NCBI GenBank assembly: GCA_903875445.1
Contig: CAIQWD010000056.1
Coordinates: 50,003-114,002, forward strand
Origin: an uncultured delta proteobacterium
GTDB lineage: Bacteria > Desulfobacterota > Desulfobulbia > Desulfobulbales > Desulfocapsaceae
Length of the DNA stretch: 64,000 nucleotides
Direction: 5' to 3'
This document shows positions 52,671 to 63,563 of the stretch, one piece after another; positions within the stretch are counted from its first letter, which is position 1, and each line of letters starts with the position of its first letter. The notes under the pieces are model-generated. The model worked only from the letters and a program-made list of their open reading frames with translations. It was not told where the DNA came from and did not search any database. A program made the position numbers and the translations under genes.

Positions 52671-55022
52671 CTATTTCAGTTGCGGTTTTTGTAATTTCTC
52701 TACCTTTCCGCGAATCGACTCATTCAGAGGTTCAAGCAGCAGCACCTGCTGGTATTCCTCCAATGCCCGATAAATAATCCCCTCACCGGCGTAATAATCG
52801 CCCAGCCATTCATGAAAGCGGGGATAATCCGGGATTTTTTCGATACCGAGCCGGAGAATCTCTAAAGCCTTCTCACTGTCTTTCTGCTGTCTGTAATAAG
52901 TATAGAGCGGGTCAAACCATTGGGGCAGAATTTTTCTTTCGTTGCAAAGAAAATCGAGGGCATGTTGCCAAAAATAAACCGCATCTTCAAGATTGCCCGT
53001 CCTCTCCAAAAAAGAACCGCACTGCATCCAACTGTCAACACTATTCGGTAAAATAGCGGCTAGCTCTTCCCTGGTGAAAGAAAAACTTTGCAGCAAGGGT
53101 ATCACCACTTTCACCAAATCGGGCGTCACAGCGATCGACTCGCGAAGAACCTCTATCGCTTTGGTCCGTTGCCTGGTTGCCAAGAGCCATTCGACGCGAG
53201 TTAACATAAGCTGATCTTTTTTGAGCGTCCGTTGCGAGCCCATTTTCAAAAAATAGTCTGCCTCTTTATGCCTGTCTTGCGGCAGTAATAATCCGATTCG
53301 TTGGAGAAAGGCCCCATCCAGGGGATCTTTCAGACTGGCGGTGACATACGAGCTCAGGGCCTCTTCAGGGTTTTTCAAATATCTCTGCACTTCTCCCTGA
53401 AAAAATGGATACAGACCCTCAGAGGGATCGAGCCGCGCCGCACTCTGCAGGGCTGAGGAAACCTCATGAAGACGTTGCTCCGACAGTTGTCTGCTTAGGT
53501 AGATGTTCTTCACGCTGTTATATTTGTACTGAGCCAGGGTCACACCCCCCTGCCCGAACAGCACTAGGCAGAAAAGAACGCCTCCGGAAAACATGAAAAT
53601 ATTTCGCGACAACCACGGACTTCTGGGTAGAAGGGTGGCATTCATTTGATAATGAAATCTTGTGTTCCCAGCCGCAACAAGAAGCCCGCAGATAAAGAAA
53701 AAATAGAGTCCGACAGCACCGTTATGCAAATTAAAATCGCTAATACTGTGGATCAGCGTGGCGACTATACCGGTAAGTGCCCCGATGCTCAAAAGTATCG
53801 AATAGCGATCCCGCCGACGTCGCAGCATTTGCCACCCTGAACGGATAATAACGATGACAAAGCAAGAAACGAGAAAGAAACTAATTATCCCGCCGTCAGT
53901 CAACAATTCAAGATAATCGTTATGGGCATGGTCATAAATTTCACTTCCTGGAAGAGTTCTATAATTCGGGAAAATAGCTATAAAAGTGCCAAAACCGCTG
54001 CCGGTCAGCCAAAATTCTTTAACTATCTGCCAGGAATTTACCCAGATCGGAAAACGGTTAATATCCACCTCACCGGAACTATTGATTATGCTGTCAAACC
54101 GTTGCACAATCGGATCCCAGCCAAACCACGAAACCGAGAGGATCAAACAGGAAATGATACCCACATAAAAGAGGCTGGAATATCGTGCCTCCTTCCAAGC
54201 CAGTAAAACAAAAAAGAACAGAAAGGACAGGGAAAAAGCAATAATCCCCCCCCTGCTCAGACTGATAAAGGTGGACGACGCCAAGATTAAGAGTCCGAAA
54301 CCAAGCAAAATGTAAAGATTACCGCCATCCTTTGAGAAAAAAGCGGCAATTCGCATGCGCAGGGATTCCCCGGAACTGACAACAGGCCGGTAATAGAGGG
54401 ACAGCGCAAGCACCAGAGGTGCGATAAGCTCTATATAGCCGCAGTATTGAGAACGATAAATCCACGGTCCGACTACCTGTTGGGCATTGGCTGGACCTGA
54501 GCGTAACCAATAGATTTTCCCCGGCGATGAAAACATTTGCAGAATAGCAATAAATCCGATACCGATAGCCAGCCAAGAGCAGATCATTACCGTCCGTTTC
54601 AAGCGATCTCCCTGACTGAGGGTCTGCACCGTCAAGATATAGAAGAATATATACATTGTTATTCGTATACTCTCCAGGACCGTGCCCTTTACATGAACGG
54701 AAAGCGGCATCCACCTATTCCCTTCAAGCAGGTCGTAAACAGGTTTATAAATCTGATATGTTTCCGGAGATAGAAATTTTACTGCACCTACCGGTAGAGG
54801 AATGATCTGTACGACCATCCACCCGACCAGAAGAAGGAGAGGAATGAGACCAGGAACATGGAGAAGCTTCTCAGCGGATTTGGTCTTTCGCAGACAGAAA
54901 GTAAAGACTGAAGCGGCAATGAAGATCTGCAGAATCAACAGGGACCACTGTTCCGCAGTGCCAAATGCCAGAGGCGCAAAAATCAGGGTAATGATAAAGA
55001 GGACATAGGAAGTTTTTGTCAC
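52671..55022 (-). CDS. O-antigen ligase/polymerase (Wzy/WaaL) with C-terminal TPR-like repeats
   Basis: Multi-TM; ...GSGFGTFIAIFPNYRTLPGSEIYDHAHNDYLELLTDGGI; TPR-like tail. Confidence 0.9.
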   Translation of the reverse strand: MTKTSYVLFIITLIFAPLAFGTAEQWSLLILQIFIAASVFTFCLRKTKSAEKLLHVPGLIPLLLLVGWMVVQIIPLPVGAVKFLSPETYQIYKPVYDLLEGNRWMPLSVHVKGTVLESIRITMYIFFYILTVQTLSQGDRLKRTVMICSWLAIGIGFIAILQMFSSPGKIYWLRSGPANAQQVVGPWIYRSQYCGYIELIAPLVLALSLYYRPVVSSGESLRMRIAAFFSKDGGNLYILLGFGLLILASSTFISLSRGGIIAFSLSFLFFFVLLAWKEARYSSLFYVGIISCLILSVSWFGWDPIVQRFDSIINSSGEVDINRFPIWVNSWQIVKEFWLTGSGFGTFIAIFPNYRTLPGSEIYDHAHNDYLELLTDGGIISFFLVSCFVIVIIRSGWQMLRRRRDRYSILLSIGALTGIVATLIHSISDFNLHNGAVGLYFFFICGLLVAAGNTRFHYQMNATLLPRSPWLSRNIFMFSGGVLFCLVLFGQGGVTLAQYKYNSVKNIYLSRQLSEQRLHEVSSALQSAARLDPSEGLYPFFQGEVQRYLKNPEEALSSYVTASLKDPLDGAFLQRIGLLLPQDRHKEADYFLKMGSQRTLKKDQLMLTRVEWLLATRQRTKAIEVLRESIAVTPDLVKVVIPLLQSFSFTREELAAILPNSVDSWMQCGSFLERTGNLEDAVYFWQHALDFLCNERKILPQWFDPLYTYYRQQKDSEKALEILRLGIEKIPDYPRFHEWLGDYYAGEGIIYRALEEYQQVLLLEPLNESIRGKVEKLQKPQLK

Positions 55023-55058: not shown

Positions 55059-57308
55059 CTAGCCGACATTGTCCTTGGCATAATACGCTGTATATCCGGA
55101 GTAATAGGACCCAGCGCTGTGGCTTTTATTCAACCCGTTCAAGACAAACCCGAGGAAATGGCACTGCACATCCTTCAATTTTTTCAAGCCGCTCTGCATT
55201 ATATCATAGGTCGTTACCCCGGCCTTAACCACAACCACCGTACCATCGACCAGTTGCGTCAGAATCAGGCTATCGGTAACACTCTGTACCGGTGGCGAAT
55301 CGATCAGAACAAAATCGAAGTTCTCAGCCATTTTTTCAATAAGAACCTTCAGTTTTTTTGAACCTACCAGCTCGGACGGGTTGGGAGGGATAGTTCCCGA
55401 AGTAATTACAAAAATCTCTTCACCGGCAACCTTGTGAACAATATTTTCATTGAGATTGCCGGTTAGATAGTTGCTCAATCCCTTGTCATTTTGCATAGCG
55501 AACACTGAATGGACTCTCGGTCTCCGCAGGTCGCAATCGATTATTAGAACCTTTTTGTTACCCTGACTAAACACCCGGGCAATATTGATGGTCGTCGAGG
55601 TCTTCCCCTCACCCGGCCCCATGCTGGTCACCAAGATCGTTCTCGGAGGGTGCTCAGCCGATGACAGCAACAGTCCGGAGCGGATGAGTCGATAGCTTTC
55701 GGCAAGCGGCGACAGCGGTTTTTGGACAATATACGACTCAATATTCTTGCTCTTTTCCTTGAGTTTTTCCACAGCCCCAAGGACGGTCAAACCATAGCGG
55801 CTTTCCAAATCCTTTTCCGACTGAATCGTATTATCGAGATACTCTATCAGAAAAACACAGCCAATACCGGCGACCAACCCCAAAAGAAGACCGATGGCCA
55901 GGTTGCTTGTTTTATTCGGTGTTGAGGGTGCACCAGGCAAGGCAGCATTTTTTATTACCCAGACATTGACGCTCTGTGACTGCTCGGTAACTCCTTCTTT
56001 TTTAATGCTGGAGGTCAGGGATTCGTATACCACGCGATTGGCGTCGACATCCCGCTTCATTATCGAATATTGGATGAACTTCTCGTTCAGGTTGAGCAGT
56101 TCACCCTTGGTCGAAGTGAGCATTTCTTCGAGGTTTTTCTCCTGCGACTTTGCCAATTCATAAGAATTCTTGGTCGCGGCAATGACCCGATTGATCTCAG
56201 CCTGCTGTTGACTTATCAGTTCTCTGAGTTCATCATTTGCCTTGATCATCACCGGATGTTTCTCGCCATATTTTTTTGACAATTCGCTGATATTTTGCCG
56301 GGACTTAAAGATAGTCTCTCTCAGGCTTTTCAGTACTTCATTGCCGGCGAACAGCGGGATATTTTCCAGTTGAAAGACATTTTTGCCAGCTGCCTCAATC
56401 TGTTTCAATACCCCTTCCAACACTCTTCTGTCTGTCTGTGCTTTGGACAGTTGCGAACTGAACTCCGTCAACCGCTGCGGAGAAATTGCCAGTTTATTCT
56501 CAACCGTTACCAGATCGTTGGCCCGCATATAGTTCTGCATGGCCATTTCCGATGCCTCAAGCTTCTTTCTCTCATCCTGGGCCTTGCTCGTCATCCATTG
56601 CAGAGCATAACGGCTGGTGGTGAGTTTCATATCGAGAATTTCTTCCATATATGCCTTGGCTACCGCATCGGCTACCAGTTTGGCGATGGCTGGAGACTTG
56701 TCGCTAAAGGAGATACGTACTATTTTAGTGTTTTTCACAGGCTCGACCAGCAGCCTGCCTTGCACCATTGAGGCAATGGTATCCTCATCCGACAGGGGTT
56801 CAACGCTTAATCCGGACCCCTCACCATTCTGCCGTTTTTCACCTTGTACCTCACCTTTCAAGGGAATTATGATTTTCTCGACAAAGTCTTGCAGCCCGGA
56901 TTTAATGTCGCTGAAAAATGACGGGGTGTCATTTTTCCCCTCAAGGAAAAAGCTTCGGTAGGTGGTGCTCAGTTTCAGGCTGTCCACGACTCTTCTTGCT
57001 ACCTTGGCGCTTCTAATAATCGCCGACTGGGTGTCGAGAAAATCGGGGTCATAAGAGGAGTAGTATTGTCTTTCAAGACCGGATTGAGCATTGTTCCGTT
57101 CTATCAAAACATCGGTGTCCGAAGTATAAATAGGAACGGTTGAGAAGGTCTTGATAACCGTGATCAAAAAGATGACAATCAGAAAGGTGAAAACAATAAA
57201 TTTTCTTTTCCGGAGAATTATGAAATAATCTCGGATATTAATCTCCTGCTCGACATCCTCCTCGCGAAAACGTTCCTGCTCCTGATAATTCTGCATGCTG
57301 GTATTCAC
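55059..57308 (-). CDS. Wzz-BY-kinase fusion (polysaccharide co-polymerase / tyrosine autokinase)
   Basis: Wzz N-terminus; Walker A SMGPGEGKTSTTINIARVF; Walker A' LIIDCDLRRPRVH; Tyr-rich tail YYSGYTAYY. Confidence 0.95.
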   Translation of the reverse strand: MNTSMQNYQEQERFREEDVEQEINIRDYFIILRKRKFIVFTFLIVIFLITVIKTFSTVPIYTSDTDVLIERNNAQSGLERQYYSSYDPDFLDTQSAIIRSAKVARRVVDSLKLSTTYRSFFLEGKNDTPSFFSDIKSGLQDFVEKIIIPLKGEVQGEKRQNGEGSGLSVEPLSDEDTIASMVQGRLLVEPVKNTKIVRISFSDKSPAIAKLVADAVAKAYMEEILDMKLTTSRYALQWMTSKAQDERKKLEASEMAMQNYMRANDLVTVENKLAISPQRLTEFSSQLSKAQTDRRVLEGVLKQIEAAGKNVFQLENIPLFAGNEVLKSLRETIFKSRQNISELSKKYGEKHPVMIKANDELRELISQQQAEINRVIAATKNSYELAKSQEKNLEEMLTSTKGELLNLNEKFIQYSIMKRDVDANRVVYESLTSSIKKEGVTEQSQSVNVWVIKNAALPGAPSTPNKTSNLAIGLLLGLVAGIGCVFLIEYLDNTIQSEKDLESRYGLTVLGAVEKLKEKSKNIESYIVQKPLSPLAESYRLIRSGLLLSSAEHPPRTILVTSMGPGEGKTSTTINIARVFSQGNKKVLIIDCDLRRPRVHSVFAMQNDKGLSNYLTGNLNENIVHKVAGEEIFVITSGTIPPNPSELVGSKKLKVLIEKMAENFDFVLIDSPPVQSVTDSLILTQLVDGTVVVVKAGVTTYDIMQSGLKKLKDVQCHFLGFVLNGLNKSHSAGSYYSGYTAYYAKDNVG

Positions 57309-57341: not shown

Positions 57342-58151
57342 CTAAAAGAAGCTTTCCGGAACGACAATTACATCATTTTTAAGAACGGCTGTATCAAGAT
57401 TGACATCCTTCATCACGTTCTTCTTGTCACCCTCCATGCGGATGATGGAAACGCTGGACTTTGAAGCCTTGCCGGTAAACCCTCTGGCAAGGGCCACCAA
57501 TTTGAGAACCGTGGTGCCGTCGCCACAGGGATAAGTGCCGGGAGTACCTACTTCACCGGTGACATAACACATCCCGGCCCCGGAGATATAGACGGTATCT
57601 TCGTCATTGATCTGGATGTTTTGATCCAAATCGCCACCTTTGACAAGTGAAATCAAATTAATGGGGATTACCGAATCCTTATCACCGACCTTTCTCTTGA
57701 TCGTAGCGGTATCTCCGGCATCCTTGTCTAAACCGCCTGCTTTGGAAACCAACTCAAGAAAAGTGGTCGGTCCACTCAATTCGATAATACCGGGGTTTCT
57801 GACATTGCCGAGAATAACCACCTTCCTGCTGCGGAATTCATCGACAAAGACGTTGATCTGCGGATTGACGATATAACCGTTAGCAAAAAGCCCGGTTAAT
57901 TTTTCGGTAATGGCGGAAATGGATAATTTGTTGACATTCACTGCTCCCAGCAACGGTACAACAATCGTGCCGTTGCTGGAAACTCGAACTTTGGTTTTGA
58001 GATCATCATTGTTATAAACAATGATACTGATGACATCACCGGGCCCTACCTGATACTCTCCACTGAATACCTGATTTTTTCCAAACAAAACCAGAAAGGC
58101 CAAAAAAACAGTCGGAAGTATTTTTTTAAAACGACTCGTCATCAGATGCAA
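57342..58151 (-). CDS. Polysaccharide export outer-membrane protein (Wza-like, SLBB)
   Basis: YQVGPGDVISIIVYNNDDLKTKVRVSSNGTIVVPLLGAVNVNKLS; SLBB repeats. Confidence 0.93.
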   Translation of the reverse strand: MHLMTSRFKKILPTVFLAFLVLFGKNQVFSGEYQVGPGDVISIIVYNNDDLKTKVRVSSNGTIVVPLLGAVNVNKLSISAITEKLTGLFANGYIVNPQINVFVDEFRSRKVVILGNVRNPGIIELSGPTTFLELVSKAGGLDKDAGDTATIKRKVGDKDSVIPINLISLVKGGDLDQNIQINDEDTVYISGAGMCYVTGEVGTPGTYPCGDGTTVLKLVALARGFTGKASKSSVSIIRMEGDKKNVMKDVNLDTAVLKNDVIVVPESFF

Positions 58152-58232: not shown

Positions 58233-59666
58233 TCATAAGGCAAATTTAATATTCGCAAAAACCGTGTTCGTTTGATAGTCAAAGAGATTATCAGTCGAAT
58301 CGCGTTTTTCAAATTGATATGACACCTCACCCATCAGCCATTCACGAAAAAGATATTGGGCTGCCGGTTTTAAAGAAAAGTAGGTATCATCCCTATTCTG
58401 GGAGATAAGTTGCGAATACTTGGCATCCTCAAATTTGGCGTCAAAAGTGCCGCTGATTTTATCGGTAAATTTTTGATTATAACCAAGGGTTACACCCAGA
58501 ACAGTTTTGTCGGAAGCGACCGTACTATCGGTTTCTTCGTTTGTTCTATATGCATCCAAGGAAAATTTGGTCTTTTCGGTCATCTTGTAGACAGCCTGTA
58601 CATCAGCGGCTAGCCCAGTGAAATCACTCCGTTTAGTAGCAACGTTATCATTGTTTTGATATTCCTTATTCTGAACACCGGCTTTGGCAAACAATGCCAC
58701 TTTTTCTGTAGTATCCCACTTAAAACCACCGTAGATAAAATTCTGTCGGTTATCATTTTGCGTTGCAGTATCGTACTTGACATCGACAAATTTCCCCTCA
58801 AGAAAGACCGCGGTCTTTACACTATAGTTGAAGTACCCATACAGATCAAAAGCATTATCAACACGATCCTTAAAAGCATCGAGATCTTTATCATAAGAAA
58901 GATAAAAATTTGAATAATCTAACTTAGCACGCAATTTCTCGGTAATATTCCAATCTGCGGTTGCTACTCCGATATTAGAATCAAACTTGCTCTCAAAAAC
59001 ACTGCCGTTGGAACCGGGATTGGAGCCAACATCAAAGCGATCCGCACCGCGAGTAAATCTGTCCACAGCCATCAACGACAAGCCACCACGCATATTATAG
59101 CGGAACATCCCCTCGCCGAGGCCATTAACCGTATTTAACTCGGAATCAGTGGAATAAAGCTTAAAATCCGCCCCCCCAAGGGCATATGCTTGAAAGCGAT
59201 CAGTTCCTTCATAATCTTTGGATTGTAAGGCCAAGCCTCCCGGAGAGGTATTGTTGGTAGCCAAGGTCACCGGAATATCCTTCTTTCTTGGTAACGAGAA
59301 CCAAACAGCCGGCGACAAAGTCGTTAAGACATTGGAGGTTTTGTTTTTTTCCAAATTATAAAGATTGTCGGTATACTCTTCCTGCACCATAGCATTGATA
59401 TGGATATACCCGCCATTGCCGCCAAGGAGGTTATCTTCTTCAGACATTTTTGCGTCTTCCGGTAACAGCGAAACCTTATCTCCAGCGCTATGTCCTACCG
59501 GTATGTCCTGCACTACCCCGATTCCACCAGCGGGAGCCGGACCATTACCGGAACCGACAACCGTCAGTTGTTGAATCTGAATAGCCTGGACAGGACTATT
59601 CAGCATCAACAACCCGGAACAGGCTACAACCCCTGCGAACAAAGAAGTAACTTTTTTCGACCCCAT
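58233..59666 (-). CDS. Outer-membrane beta-barrel protein of EPS locus
   Basis: Signal peptide, alternating hydrophobic strands, terminal ...TVFANIKFAL. Confidence 0.75.
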   Translation of the reverse strand: MGSKKVTSLFAGVVACSGLLMLNSPVQAIQIQQLTVVGSGNGPAPAGGIGVVQDIPVGHSAGDKVSLLPEDAKMSEEDNLLGGNGGYIHINAMVQEEYTDNLYNLEKNKTSNVLTTLSPAVWFSLPRKKDIPVTLATNNTSPGGLALQSKDYEGTDRFQAYALGGADFKLYSTDSELNTVNGLGEGMFRYNMRGGLSLMAVDRFTRGADRFDVGSNPGSNGSVFESKFDSNIGVATADWNITEKLRAKLDYSNFYLSYDKDLDAFKDRVDNAFDLYGYFNYSVKTAVFLEGKFVDVKYDTATQNDNRQNFIYGGFKWDTTEKVALFAKAGVQNKEYQNNDNVATKRSDFTGLAADVQAVYKMTEKTKFSLDAYRTNEETDSTVASDKTVLGVTLGYNQKFTDKISGTFDAKFEDAKYSQLISQNRDDTYFSLKPAAQYLFREWLMGEVSYQFEKRDSTDNLFDYQTNTVFANIKFAL

Positions 59667-59759: not shown

Positions 59760-60188
59760 TCAAAAAGTTGACGGACTAGCGAAAGAACCACCTCGCCCAC
59801 CACTGGGGGTCGCGAAACTCGGACCGGTGGCAACTGGTGTATATGCCTGACTGTCGGCAACCCGGTCTCCACACTCGTCGATGCTCTTTTTGTAACCGGC
59901 AACAACAATAGGTTCCGAGATTTTCCATTTTTCTGCCGCCGCCCTGATGTCCTGACCGCTGGCCCCGGCACAGTACAGCGCTCGCACTAGATTTTGCGGG
60001 TTGAGCCCTTCGATTTCAAGACCAACCTCAACAATCAAGTCTGGGTTTCTTCCATCTTTTAAAGCTTTTTCTACTGCCTTATCAATACCTTCGGTGCTAT
60101 AAGTATCACGAAAATCGACCATCCATTCCGCGCAGGCAATGGAAACGCTGAAAAGAACCATTACACAAGCAATCCCAAATTTTTTCAT
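59760..60188 (-). CDS. Small secreted protein of unknown function
   Basis: Signal peptide MKKFGIACVMVLFSVSIACA; conserved-looking core with two Cys; Gly/Ser-rich tail; RBS aaggaggt. Confidence 0.65.
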   Translation of the reverse strand: MKKFGIACVMVLFSVSIACAEWMVDFRDTYSTEGIDKAVEKALKDGRNPDLIVEVGLEIEGLNPQNLVRALYCAGASGQDIRAAAEKWKISEPIVVAGYKKSIDECGDRVADSQAYTPVATGPSFATPSGGRGGSFASPSTF

Positions 60189-60541: not shown

Positions 60542-62002
60542 TCATTTCTTTTTGAATTTCACTAAAAACTTAAAAACCACCTGCTCCTGATCACCACCAA
60601 ACTCCAGGAACCTGAAACCATGGTAGTAAGTATTGCCATGCTCTGAAAACCACAGGTGTTCGGCAGGCAACTCAAGAGAGTGGAATTCCGAATCAAGGGG
60701 AAAGGTAATTTTTGCAACCACTCTGTCAAGGAGGCAATCTAATTGCGGAAGAGAGGCCATAAATCCATCATTGGAGATGTTCAAAACGCTGCCGGAAAAC
60801 ACCAAATTTCTATCGCGTTCCTGGCAGGTGAATGAAAGTTCGACATCATACCTCGGTGACTTTCTGAGAATACGGAAAAAATTCAACCTGCTCGACAGAA
60901 TTCGATGAACCCAAAAAGCTCGGCCGCCTGTTTCTTCATGTTTCTTGGTATATTTAAGACTGGCCCGCATCAAACGTATGATGAAGAAGGAAGATATGAC
61001 ATACACAATAAAATAAACGAGAAATACAGCGAAAAGGCTGGCATCCGACAATTTGTAGAGAGGCCCGAGTAGGCTGGTAAGGCTCAGCAGGGTGGTAACA
61101 CCTAGGATCACTTTGACGGCCAGGACTCTGCCCATACCTAACCTCATAAAAATATGGTGCAAGTGGTAACGGTCAGCTTTGAAGGGATTCTGGCCACGAA
61201 GTATTCTTTTCCCCATGACCGTAATGGTATCGGTTATCGGCACGGCGAGAATCAGTAGAGGGACAACGGGACTGACATGGGCGTTGCTGCCCTGAGTCAA
61301 TGCCAGCGCCATAAATGCAAGCGAAAACCCCAGGCACAAGCTCCCCGCATCACCCATGAACATCGTCGAAGGATACCAGTTGAACCGTAGAAAACCTAGG
61401 ACCGCGCCAGCCAACGCCAGATTGAGCAGCATCAGTGTCTCATCTCCCCCAATCGATGCATGGATGGCAAAAATGATAAAAGCGACAAAAGAAATCCCGC
61501 CAGCCAACCCATCAAGACCGTCGACCAGATTTATGGCATTGATGACGCCTACGACACAAAAAATGGTCACTCCCCAGATAAGCCAGGAAATGTCCGGCAA
61601 AATGATCGGCCCCAAACCGCATAAATCACCAAAGGAAACAAGACTCACCTTGCTGAAATATATCAATAAAAGGCTGGCGAGAATCTGCGCGAGAAACTTT
61701 TGCTTATGGCCCATTTCCTTAAAATCGTCGAGAAAACCGACAAAAAGCAAGATGGACAATCCGAGGAAATAACCCCGCAGGCCGGCAATGGGAATAAAGA
61801 TAAGCGAACAGAAGGTGGCCGAGATCACCATACCTATACCACCAACCAAAGGCCGAGGGATTTTATGAATCTTTCTTTTTTCGGAAGGCTTATCTAAGAG
61901 ACCGATAACCTTGGCAATCCGTGCCAATTTGGGGAGCACGAGCATTGAAGAAAACAGGGCGACCAGAAAGACCAAAAAAATTCTTATTTCAAGATTGAGC
62001 AT
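60542..62002 (-). CDS. WecA/MraY-type undecaprenyl-phosphate glycosyl-1-phosphate transferase with C-terminal PilZ domain
   Basis: DKPSEKRKIHKIPRPLVGG; NAINLVDGLDGLAGG; FMGDAGSLCLG; HHIFMRLGM; then RKSPR...NISNDG PilZ signature. Confidence 0.92.
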   Translation of the reverse strand: MLNLEIRIFLVFLVALFSSMLVLPKLARIAKVIGLLDKPSEKRKIHKIPRPLVGGIGMVISATFCSLIFIPIAGLRGYFLGLSILLFVGFLDDFKEMGHKQKFLAQILASLLLIYFSKVSLVSFGDLCGLGPIILPDISWLIWGVTIFCVVGVINAINLVDGLDGLAGGISFVAFIIFAIHASIGGDETLMLLNLALAGAVLGFLRFNWYPSTMFMGDAGSLCLGFSLAFMALALTQGSNAHVSPVVPLLILAVPITDTITVMGKRILRGQNPFKADRYHLHHIFMRLGMGRVLAVKVILGVTTLLSLTSLLGPLYKLSDASLFAVFLVYFIVYVISSFFIIRLMRASLKYTKKHEETGGRAFWVHRILSSRLNFFRILRKSPRYDVELSFTCQERDRNLVFSGSVLNISNDGFMASLPQLDCLLDRVVAKITFPLDSEFHSLELPAEHLWFSEHGNTYYHGFRFLEFGGDQEQVVFKFLVKFKKK

Positions 62003-62422: not shown

Positions 62423-62728
62423 CTAGCAAAACCTGCCTTTCCGCTTTCTGTCGGCATCAACCACTCCCCTGAGCACCTTGAACAAGTCCGAGTATTGTTG
62501 GGCCTCATCAATGATTACCTGATCCGTGTTCAGGCTAAAAAAGGCAACAGGATCGCCGCTGATAAGCTGGTAGTCATCCGGGCTTTCAAGGTCATAGTAT
62601 TTCCAGTCACCTCGTAATCCACGAACCAAGGTCGATTTTCCGCATTGTCTCGGCCCGATGATGGCCACTACCGGAAACATATCGAGCAGCCGCGTGATTT
62701 TCTCTTCAAGAACCCGTTTCTTATCCAT
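62423..62728 (-). pseudogene. Truncated AAA_14/DUF4143-type ATPase (N-terminal fragment)
   Basis: VVAIIGPRQCGKSTLVRGLRGDWKYYDLESPDDYQLISGDPVAFFSLNTDQVIIDEAQQYSDLFKVLRGVVDADRKRKGRF then premature stop. Confidence 0.8.
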
Positions 62729-62856
62729 GATACAGCCAATAATAAATAACCATTGGTCTTTTTCCGTTTAAACAAAAAGACGACCTTATAACTGATTGTA
62801 ATTCGATAAAAACTCAGGTAGTGTCAAATAAGGAAATTTTCATTCATGAGGCTTCA

Positions 62857-63258
62857 ATGAATCGGCAGGACCATATCCGATATTGGCTAGACAGCGCGGC
62901 GCATGACTGGGATACCGCAACTAGCCTTTTTATCTCAGAAAAATATGACTGGTGCCTTTTTATTGGGCATTTGGTTCTCGAAAAAATCCTCAAGGCACTT
63001 TTTGTGCAAAATAGTGCCGATCTCCTTCCGCCGAAGACCCACAATCTTGTCAAACTTGCGGAAAACGCCAAGATTCCTTTGACCGATAAGCAGAGGTTTC
63101 TTCTCGACGAGGTGAATGATTTCAATATTGAGATACGCTATCCCCAGTTTAGAGATGAGCTCTACAAAAAATGTACAAGAGAATTTTCACAACATTATTT
63201 CAAACAAATCGAGGACCTAGCGGAATGGCTCAAATCCCGGCTGACATATCTTCCATAA
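62857..63258 (+). CDS. HEPN-domain protein
   Basis: DHIRYWLDSAAHDWDTATSLFISEKYDWCLFIGHLVLEKILKALFVQ...HNLVKLAENA...DFNIEIRYPQ. Confidence 0.88.
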   Translation: MNRQDHIRYWLDSAAHDWDTATSLFISEKYDWCLFIGHLVLEKILKALFVQNSADLLPPKTHNLVKLAENAKIPLTDKQRFLLDEVNDFNIEIRYPQFRDELYKKCTREFSQHYFKQIEDLAEWLKSRLTYLP

Positions 63259-63563
63259 TTGACATCTTCCTGAAAGAACTTGAAAAAGAGAATATTTCCA
63301 TCGAAAGAGCCATTCTATTCGGTAGTTATGCCCAAGGAACGAATACACCTTGGAGCGATATCGATCTTGCCCTCTTTTCCTCAGATTTCGAAGGAGATCG
63401 TTTCAAAGACAGAAATAAAATCCGGAGGATTAAGCTGCAAATCTCAAGCAGCCTTGAACCTATCCCTTTTCCATCTCATCAATACTTCAATTCTGATCCC
63501 TTAGTGGAACAGATTAAAAAAACCGGAATAGCCGTGTTTCCTAAAAAACAGCAGTCCGTTTGA
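63225..63563 (+). CDS. MNT-type minimal nucleotidyltransferase
   Basis: AILFGSYAQGTNTPWSDIDLALFSSDF; overlaps HEPN gene by 34 bp. Confidence 0.88.
   Translation: MAQIPADISSIIDIFLKELEKENISIERAILFGSYAQGTNTPWSDIDLALFSSDFEGDRFKDRNKIRRIKLQISSSLEPIPFPSHQYFNSDPLVEQIKKTGIAVFPKKQQSV

Follow-up and report, generated by a model that had tools for sequence, protein, structure and literature searches.

A WecA/MraY-type transferase fused to a C-terminal PilZ domain: a candidate c-di-GMP-controlled initiating enzyme of exopolysaccharide synthesis in the class Desulfobulbia

The control of polysaccharide synthases by c-di-GMP is well characterised, whereas the post-translational control of Wzx/Wzy pathways was still described in 2025 as incompletely understood (mBio; PMC12802240). 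In one described case, a monotopic initiating transferase is activated by a response regulator (PMC12802240). Control by PilZ domains is established in synthase pathways, and is not known for an initiating transferase of the polytopic kind. Here we describe an open reading frame of an uncultured member of the Desulfocapsaceae, found in a stretch of 64,000 nucleotides that was analysed as a whole (hereafter, the window), in which a polytopic transferase domain (PF00953) is joined to a C-terminal PilZ domain (PF07238). Full-text searches returned no paper in which these two accessions appear together, and no description of such a fusion was found in the literature searched; most subscription journals lay outside the coverage. 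The opinion given in the preliminary description, that this architecture is uncharacterised, agrees with that literature, and the fusion is also carried by some 25 relatives.

The fused gene and its two domains

The gene, its domains and its motifs are listed below. Conservation was read from an alignment of 21 full-length orthologues; all come from genomes of the class to which the window belongs, and the window copy is one of them.

60542-62002, minus strand: WecA/MraY-type polyprenyl-phosphate glycosyl-1-phosphate transferase (predicted) fused to PilZ, 486 aa
60947-62002, minus strand: membrane transferase domain, residues 1-352, with about 11 predicted membrane helices (PF00953 and MraY-like model)
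61724-61729, minus strand: catalytic Asp pair D92-D93, invariant in the 21 orthologues
61508-61540, minus strand: NxxNLVDGLDG, residues 155-165; N155, N158, D161, G162, D164 and G165 invariant in the 21 orthologues
61349-61360, minus strand: FMGD, residues 215-218, invariant in the 21 orthologues
61154-61165, minus strand: HLHH, residues 280-283, the WecA-type HxHH loop; H280, H282 and H283 invariant in the 21 orthologues
60872-60946, minus strand: variable basic linker, residues 353-377, of low column identity and low pLDDT
60545-60871, minus strand: PilZ domain, residues 378-486 (PF07238, modelled barrel, Foldseek)
60851-60865, minus strand: RxxxR motif RKSPR, residues 380-384; R380 in 20/21 and R384 in 21/21 orthologues
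60764-60781, minus strand: [N/D]xSxxG motif NISNDG, residues 408-413; N/D408, S410 and G413 in 21/21 orthologues

The limits of the gene had been given exactly in the preliminary description, which left out that it lies on the minus strand. The reading frame belongs to the PF00953 polytopic phosphoglycosyl transferases (WecA/MraY superfamily), and its enzymatic function is predicted from sequence. The transferase motifs proposed earlier for the N-terminal part are borne out by a Pfam match well over the cut-off (PF00953, residues 77-235, E 4.8e-40, 137.6 bits against 27) and by the invariance of the catalytic residues in all 21 orthologues. The nearest NCBIfam model is that of WecA (TIGR02380), and as its score of 214.9 bits lies below the curated cut-off of 326.05, the transferase is WecA-like rather than WecA proper. 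Sequence matches in the PDB were to MraY and DPAGT1. At the C-terminal end, a PilZ HMM hit, the lack of which had been named beforehand as grounds for rejecting the domain, was found above the cut-off (PF07238, residues 379-479, E 1.5e-7, 32.1 bits against 22.5), and RKSPR and NISNDG lie 23 residues apart, as had been claimed.

The modelled structure is in keeping with both assignments. AlphaFold2, run on the 21-sequence alignment, gave a mean pLDDT of 81.6. Residues 1-352 match MraY crystal structures (Foldseek E ~1e-10, target TM-score 0.7-0.8; 0.75-0.80 for 6oyh/6oyz), and the PilZ part consists of six strands within residues 385-465 and a C-terminal helix (470-485). The beta-barrel sought in the model is thus present, and it resembles PilZ structures with bound c-di-GMP: Foldseek matched it to BcsA, MotI (5vx6), the Alg44 PilZ domain (4rt0) and 4xrn, with a target TM-score of 0.77 between the C-terminal part and the c-di-GMP-bound Alg44 domain (4rt0). 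Much of the linker (about residues 353-380) has a pLDDT below 50, and the placement of the domains relative to each other is not fixed by the model. The active site and HxHH loop of MraY and WecA are cytosolic. Since two membrane helices separate this loop from the PilZ domain in the fusion and the tail is basic, the PilZ domain should also be cytosolic in the modelled topology.

Mean column identity among the 21 orthologues is 70% in the membrane domain, 36% in the linker (residues 346-377) and 48% in the PilZ domain. At least 90% identity is reached by only 14 of the 103 PilZ columns, and R380, R384, N408, S410 and G413 are all among them (hypergeometric P 2e-5 for all five motif positions falling in the best-conserved columns). 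When the C-terminal 140 aa were shuffled 20,000 times, the regular expression for the motif, taken alone, arose in 51 cases; a chance motif is ruled out by the HMM match, the modelled barrel and the conservation among orthologues together.

Operon context and the proposed action of c-di-GMP

The fused gene is the first of an operon that continues on the minus strand as follows.

59760-60188, minus strand: hyp142, a small conserved protein with a putative signal peptide and no Pfam match; second operon gene in most relatives
58233-59666, minus strand: BBP2-type outer-membrane beta-barrel (porin; PF10082, E 1.3e-11), syntenic
57342-58151, minus strand: Wza-like polysaccharide export protein (PF02563 and SLBB), syntenic
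55059-57308, minus strand: Wzc-like chain-length determinant/BY-kinase (Wzz, GNVR and AAA_31), syntenic
52671-55022, minus strand: O-antigen ligase/Wzy-like protein with TPR repeats (PF04932, E 2e-19), syntenic

This order, from transferase-PilZ through hyp142, BBP2 and the Wza-like and Wzc-like proteins to the O-antigen ligase/Wzy-like protein, recurs, with minor differences, in most of the relatives examined. Of the gene set of a Wzx/Wzy-type exopolysaccharide locus, the exporter, the co-polymerase and the polymerase/ligase are present, as the Wza-, Wzc- and Wzy_C-type neighbours. In a relative of 74% identity (G032), the genes ahead of the fusion encode GT2 and GT1 glycosyltransferases, a hexapeptide-repeat protein, a Wzx-type flippase and a PEP-CTERM protein. 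In the genome of the window, neither glycosyltransferases nor a flippase adjoin the fusion, the Wzx matches being on different contigs; local glycosyltransferases were not seen because the window stops at the contig end. Two genomes (L207 and L212) keep the fusion with no Wza or Wzc neighbours within the stretch read. Around unfused relatives the operon partners were not found, most of the flanks covered being short.

Some further features of the neighbourhood were recorded. The tail of hyp142 (59760-60188, minus strand) is rich in Gly, Ser and Pro (GGRGGSFASPSTF), and in a genome of the Nitrospirota sample (L227) an unfused transferase is followed by a protein whose tail is similar. Upstream of the operon, positions 62423-63563 hold an AAA_14 ATPase fragment, a HEPN protein and a nucleotidyltransferase (MNT); the last two are likely a toxin-antitoxin pair.

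We propose that the fusion would be the phosphoglycosyl transferase that initiates a Wzx/Wzy-type exopolysaccharide pathway. The membrane domain would transfer a sugar-1-phosphate, probably of an N-acetylated sugar by analogy with WecA, from a UDP-sugar to undecaprenyl phosphate at the cytosolic face. The cytosolic C-terminal PilZ domain is predicted from its motif and fold to bind c-di-GMP through RKSPR and NISNDG, and binding would shift the position or dimer state of this domain relative to the active site, so that loading of the carrier is switched. The allosteric step is postulated by analogy with BcsA and Alg44, and so is its direction: activation by c-di-GMP, as in those two proteins, is the likelier (PMC8461298). 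Three observations support an action of c-di-GMP on carrier loading: the motif is conserved, the exopolysaccharide operon is conserved, and the genome encodes many GGDEF proteins. Signalling by c-di-GMP is well developed in this genome, as judged from its 19 PilZ and 27 GGDEF matches. Two of its PilZ proteins (L013 and L017, on contigs C66 and C110; 488 and 339 aa) have a middle part that resembles, by eye, a cyclic-nucleotide-binding domain, with a C-terminal PilZ domain after it.

We regard the account as a whole, an initiating exopolysaccharide transferase whose carrier loading is switched by c-di-GMP through its own PilZ domain, as probable. With slightly less confidence, we favour the narrower statement that the switch is allosteric and that it controls undecaprenyl-phosphate loading as the first committed step of the pathway. 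The PilZ domain could instead bind c-di-GMP and dock partners such as glycosyltransferases, Wzx or Wzc at the transferase, leaving catalysis unchanged. A long, variable and poorly modelled linker would suit such a role, as would a PilZ motif conserved in its own right, and docking and allostery are otherwise hard to tell apart by sequence. However, docking gives no reason for joining the sensor to the committing enzyme and not to a scaffold, and we consider it unlikely.

More doubtful still is the idea that c-di-GMP represses the transferase, so that at high c-di-GMP carrier lipid would be left for peptidoglycan or some other polymer. Repression has a precedent in HfsK of the Caulobacter holdfast pathway, which is proposed to be inactive at high c-di-GMP (PMC5362036). 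The genome of the window also encodes three monotopic PF02397 transferases, so that the fusion is not its sole possible priming enzyme; one further PF00953 gene, of 360 aa, probably encodes MraY. However, the PilZ-linked polysaccharide enzymes so far described, BcsA and Alg44, are activated by c-di-GMP (PMC8461298).

Distribution and loss of the binding motif

Among 263 genomes from the class Desulfobulbia, about 26 carry the fusion; most belong to the family of the window, and single cases occur in two other families of the class. Outside the class, 396 sampled genomes of the phylum yielded no further full-length match at E <= 1e-60. A search centred on a MAG titled Geobacteraceae, again of 396 genomes, added nothing; it apparently resampled the same phylum, as contig coordinates recur. 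No plasmid record covered 80% of the query. A contig scan with two peptide patterns was of little use for distribution, both patterns being widespread among PF00953 proteins; uncultured Desulfobulbaceae was the title of one near record among the matches listed. Finally, in 198 genomes of the phylum to which a MAG titled Nitrospirae HyVt-450 belongs, two fusions were found, both with degenerate motifs.

The complete RxxxR...[N/D]xSxxG signature is present in 23 of the 25 readable fusions, the window protein among them. The two exceptions are L063, in which the first Arg is gone, and L065 (which is cut by a contig end), in which residues are lost from both halves of the motif. Motif residues are also lost in L172, whose tail has diverged, and the Nitrospirota fusions carry KRTKR or KRTNR with NIGTCG. 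In view of these losses one could see the PilZ domain as a structural remnant that has lost c-di-GMP binding. This reading is very improbable, as no motif residue is missing from the window protein or from 22 other readable fusions, and the motif residues rank among the best-conserved PilZ positions. The PilZ domains of L069 and L223 are still recognised by Pfam; together with L063, L065 and L172, in which the binding motif is likewise partly lost, they are possibly independent of c-di-GMP and could serve as useful natural controls. Although the window comes from a draft assembly of 117 contigs, an assembly artefact or sequencing error uniting two genes can safely be set aside, since more than 20 other genomes, including some single-contig assemblies (G020, G028, G029 and G175), carry full-length fusions in a single frame.

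Close homologues without a PilZ domain occur in the same class (L035, L066 and L067), which argues that PilZ is unnecessary for catalysis in general. More common in the phylum is a homologue of about 550 aa with a different C-terminal part of about 200 aa (L037, L038, L173-L180 and others); L037, the one protein of this kind that was scanned, had no Pfam match besides PF00953. Backbone support in the membrane-domain tree was 25-58 across fused and unfused groups, and with support this low the tree does not settle between one origin and several. The Nitrospirota fusions cluster with an unfused protein (support 96), a hint that the fusion was gained separately or lost repeatedly. Motif loss in some fusions, the PilZ-less homologues, the unplaced domains and the lack of a flippase and glycosyltransferases beside the gene in the genome of the window all count against the proposed switch by c-di-GMP.

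Comparison with described systems

The fusion shares with WecA and MraY (PF00953) the same membrane fold, the catalytic Asp/Asn motifs, FMGD and the HxHH loop. To our knowledge, no characterised WecA/MraY member has a PilZ domain. If the proposed control is real, the superfamily of MraY, an enzyme of known structure, would gain a member that responds to c-di-GMP. The syntheses of peptidoglycan, lipopolysaccharide and exopolysaccharide all draw on undecaprenyl phosphate and UDP-sugars. With a sensor placed on the priming enzyme, a single soluble domain and two point mutations would be enough to put the question of Wzx/Wzy control to the test.

Like the fusion, BcsA is an inner-membrane polysaccharide enzyme with a C-terminal cytosolic PilZ domain and an RxxxR...[N/D]xSxxG motif, but BcsA is a GT2 polymerase/synthase, whereas the fusion is predicted to load the lipid carrier of a Wzx/Wzy-type pathway. 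Alg44 has a PilZ domain of similar structure (4rt0) and also controls a polysaccharide pathway; unlike the fusion, it is a separate, non-catalytic subunit of its synthase. In Myxococcus xanthus, the EpsZ-EpsW pair offers a Wzx/Wzy initiating transferase under post-translational control, as we propose here, although EpsZ is monotopic and its activator is a phosphorylated response regulator, while the fusion is polytopic and would respond to c-di-GMP through PilZ (PMC12802240). HfsK of Caulobacter is a c-di-GMP effector within an exopolysaccharide assembly pathway, but it belongs to an N-acetyltransferase family and seems to act by modifying the polymer; c-di-GMP is proposed to inactivate it (PMC5362036).
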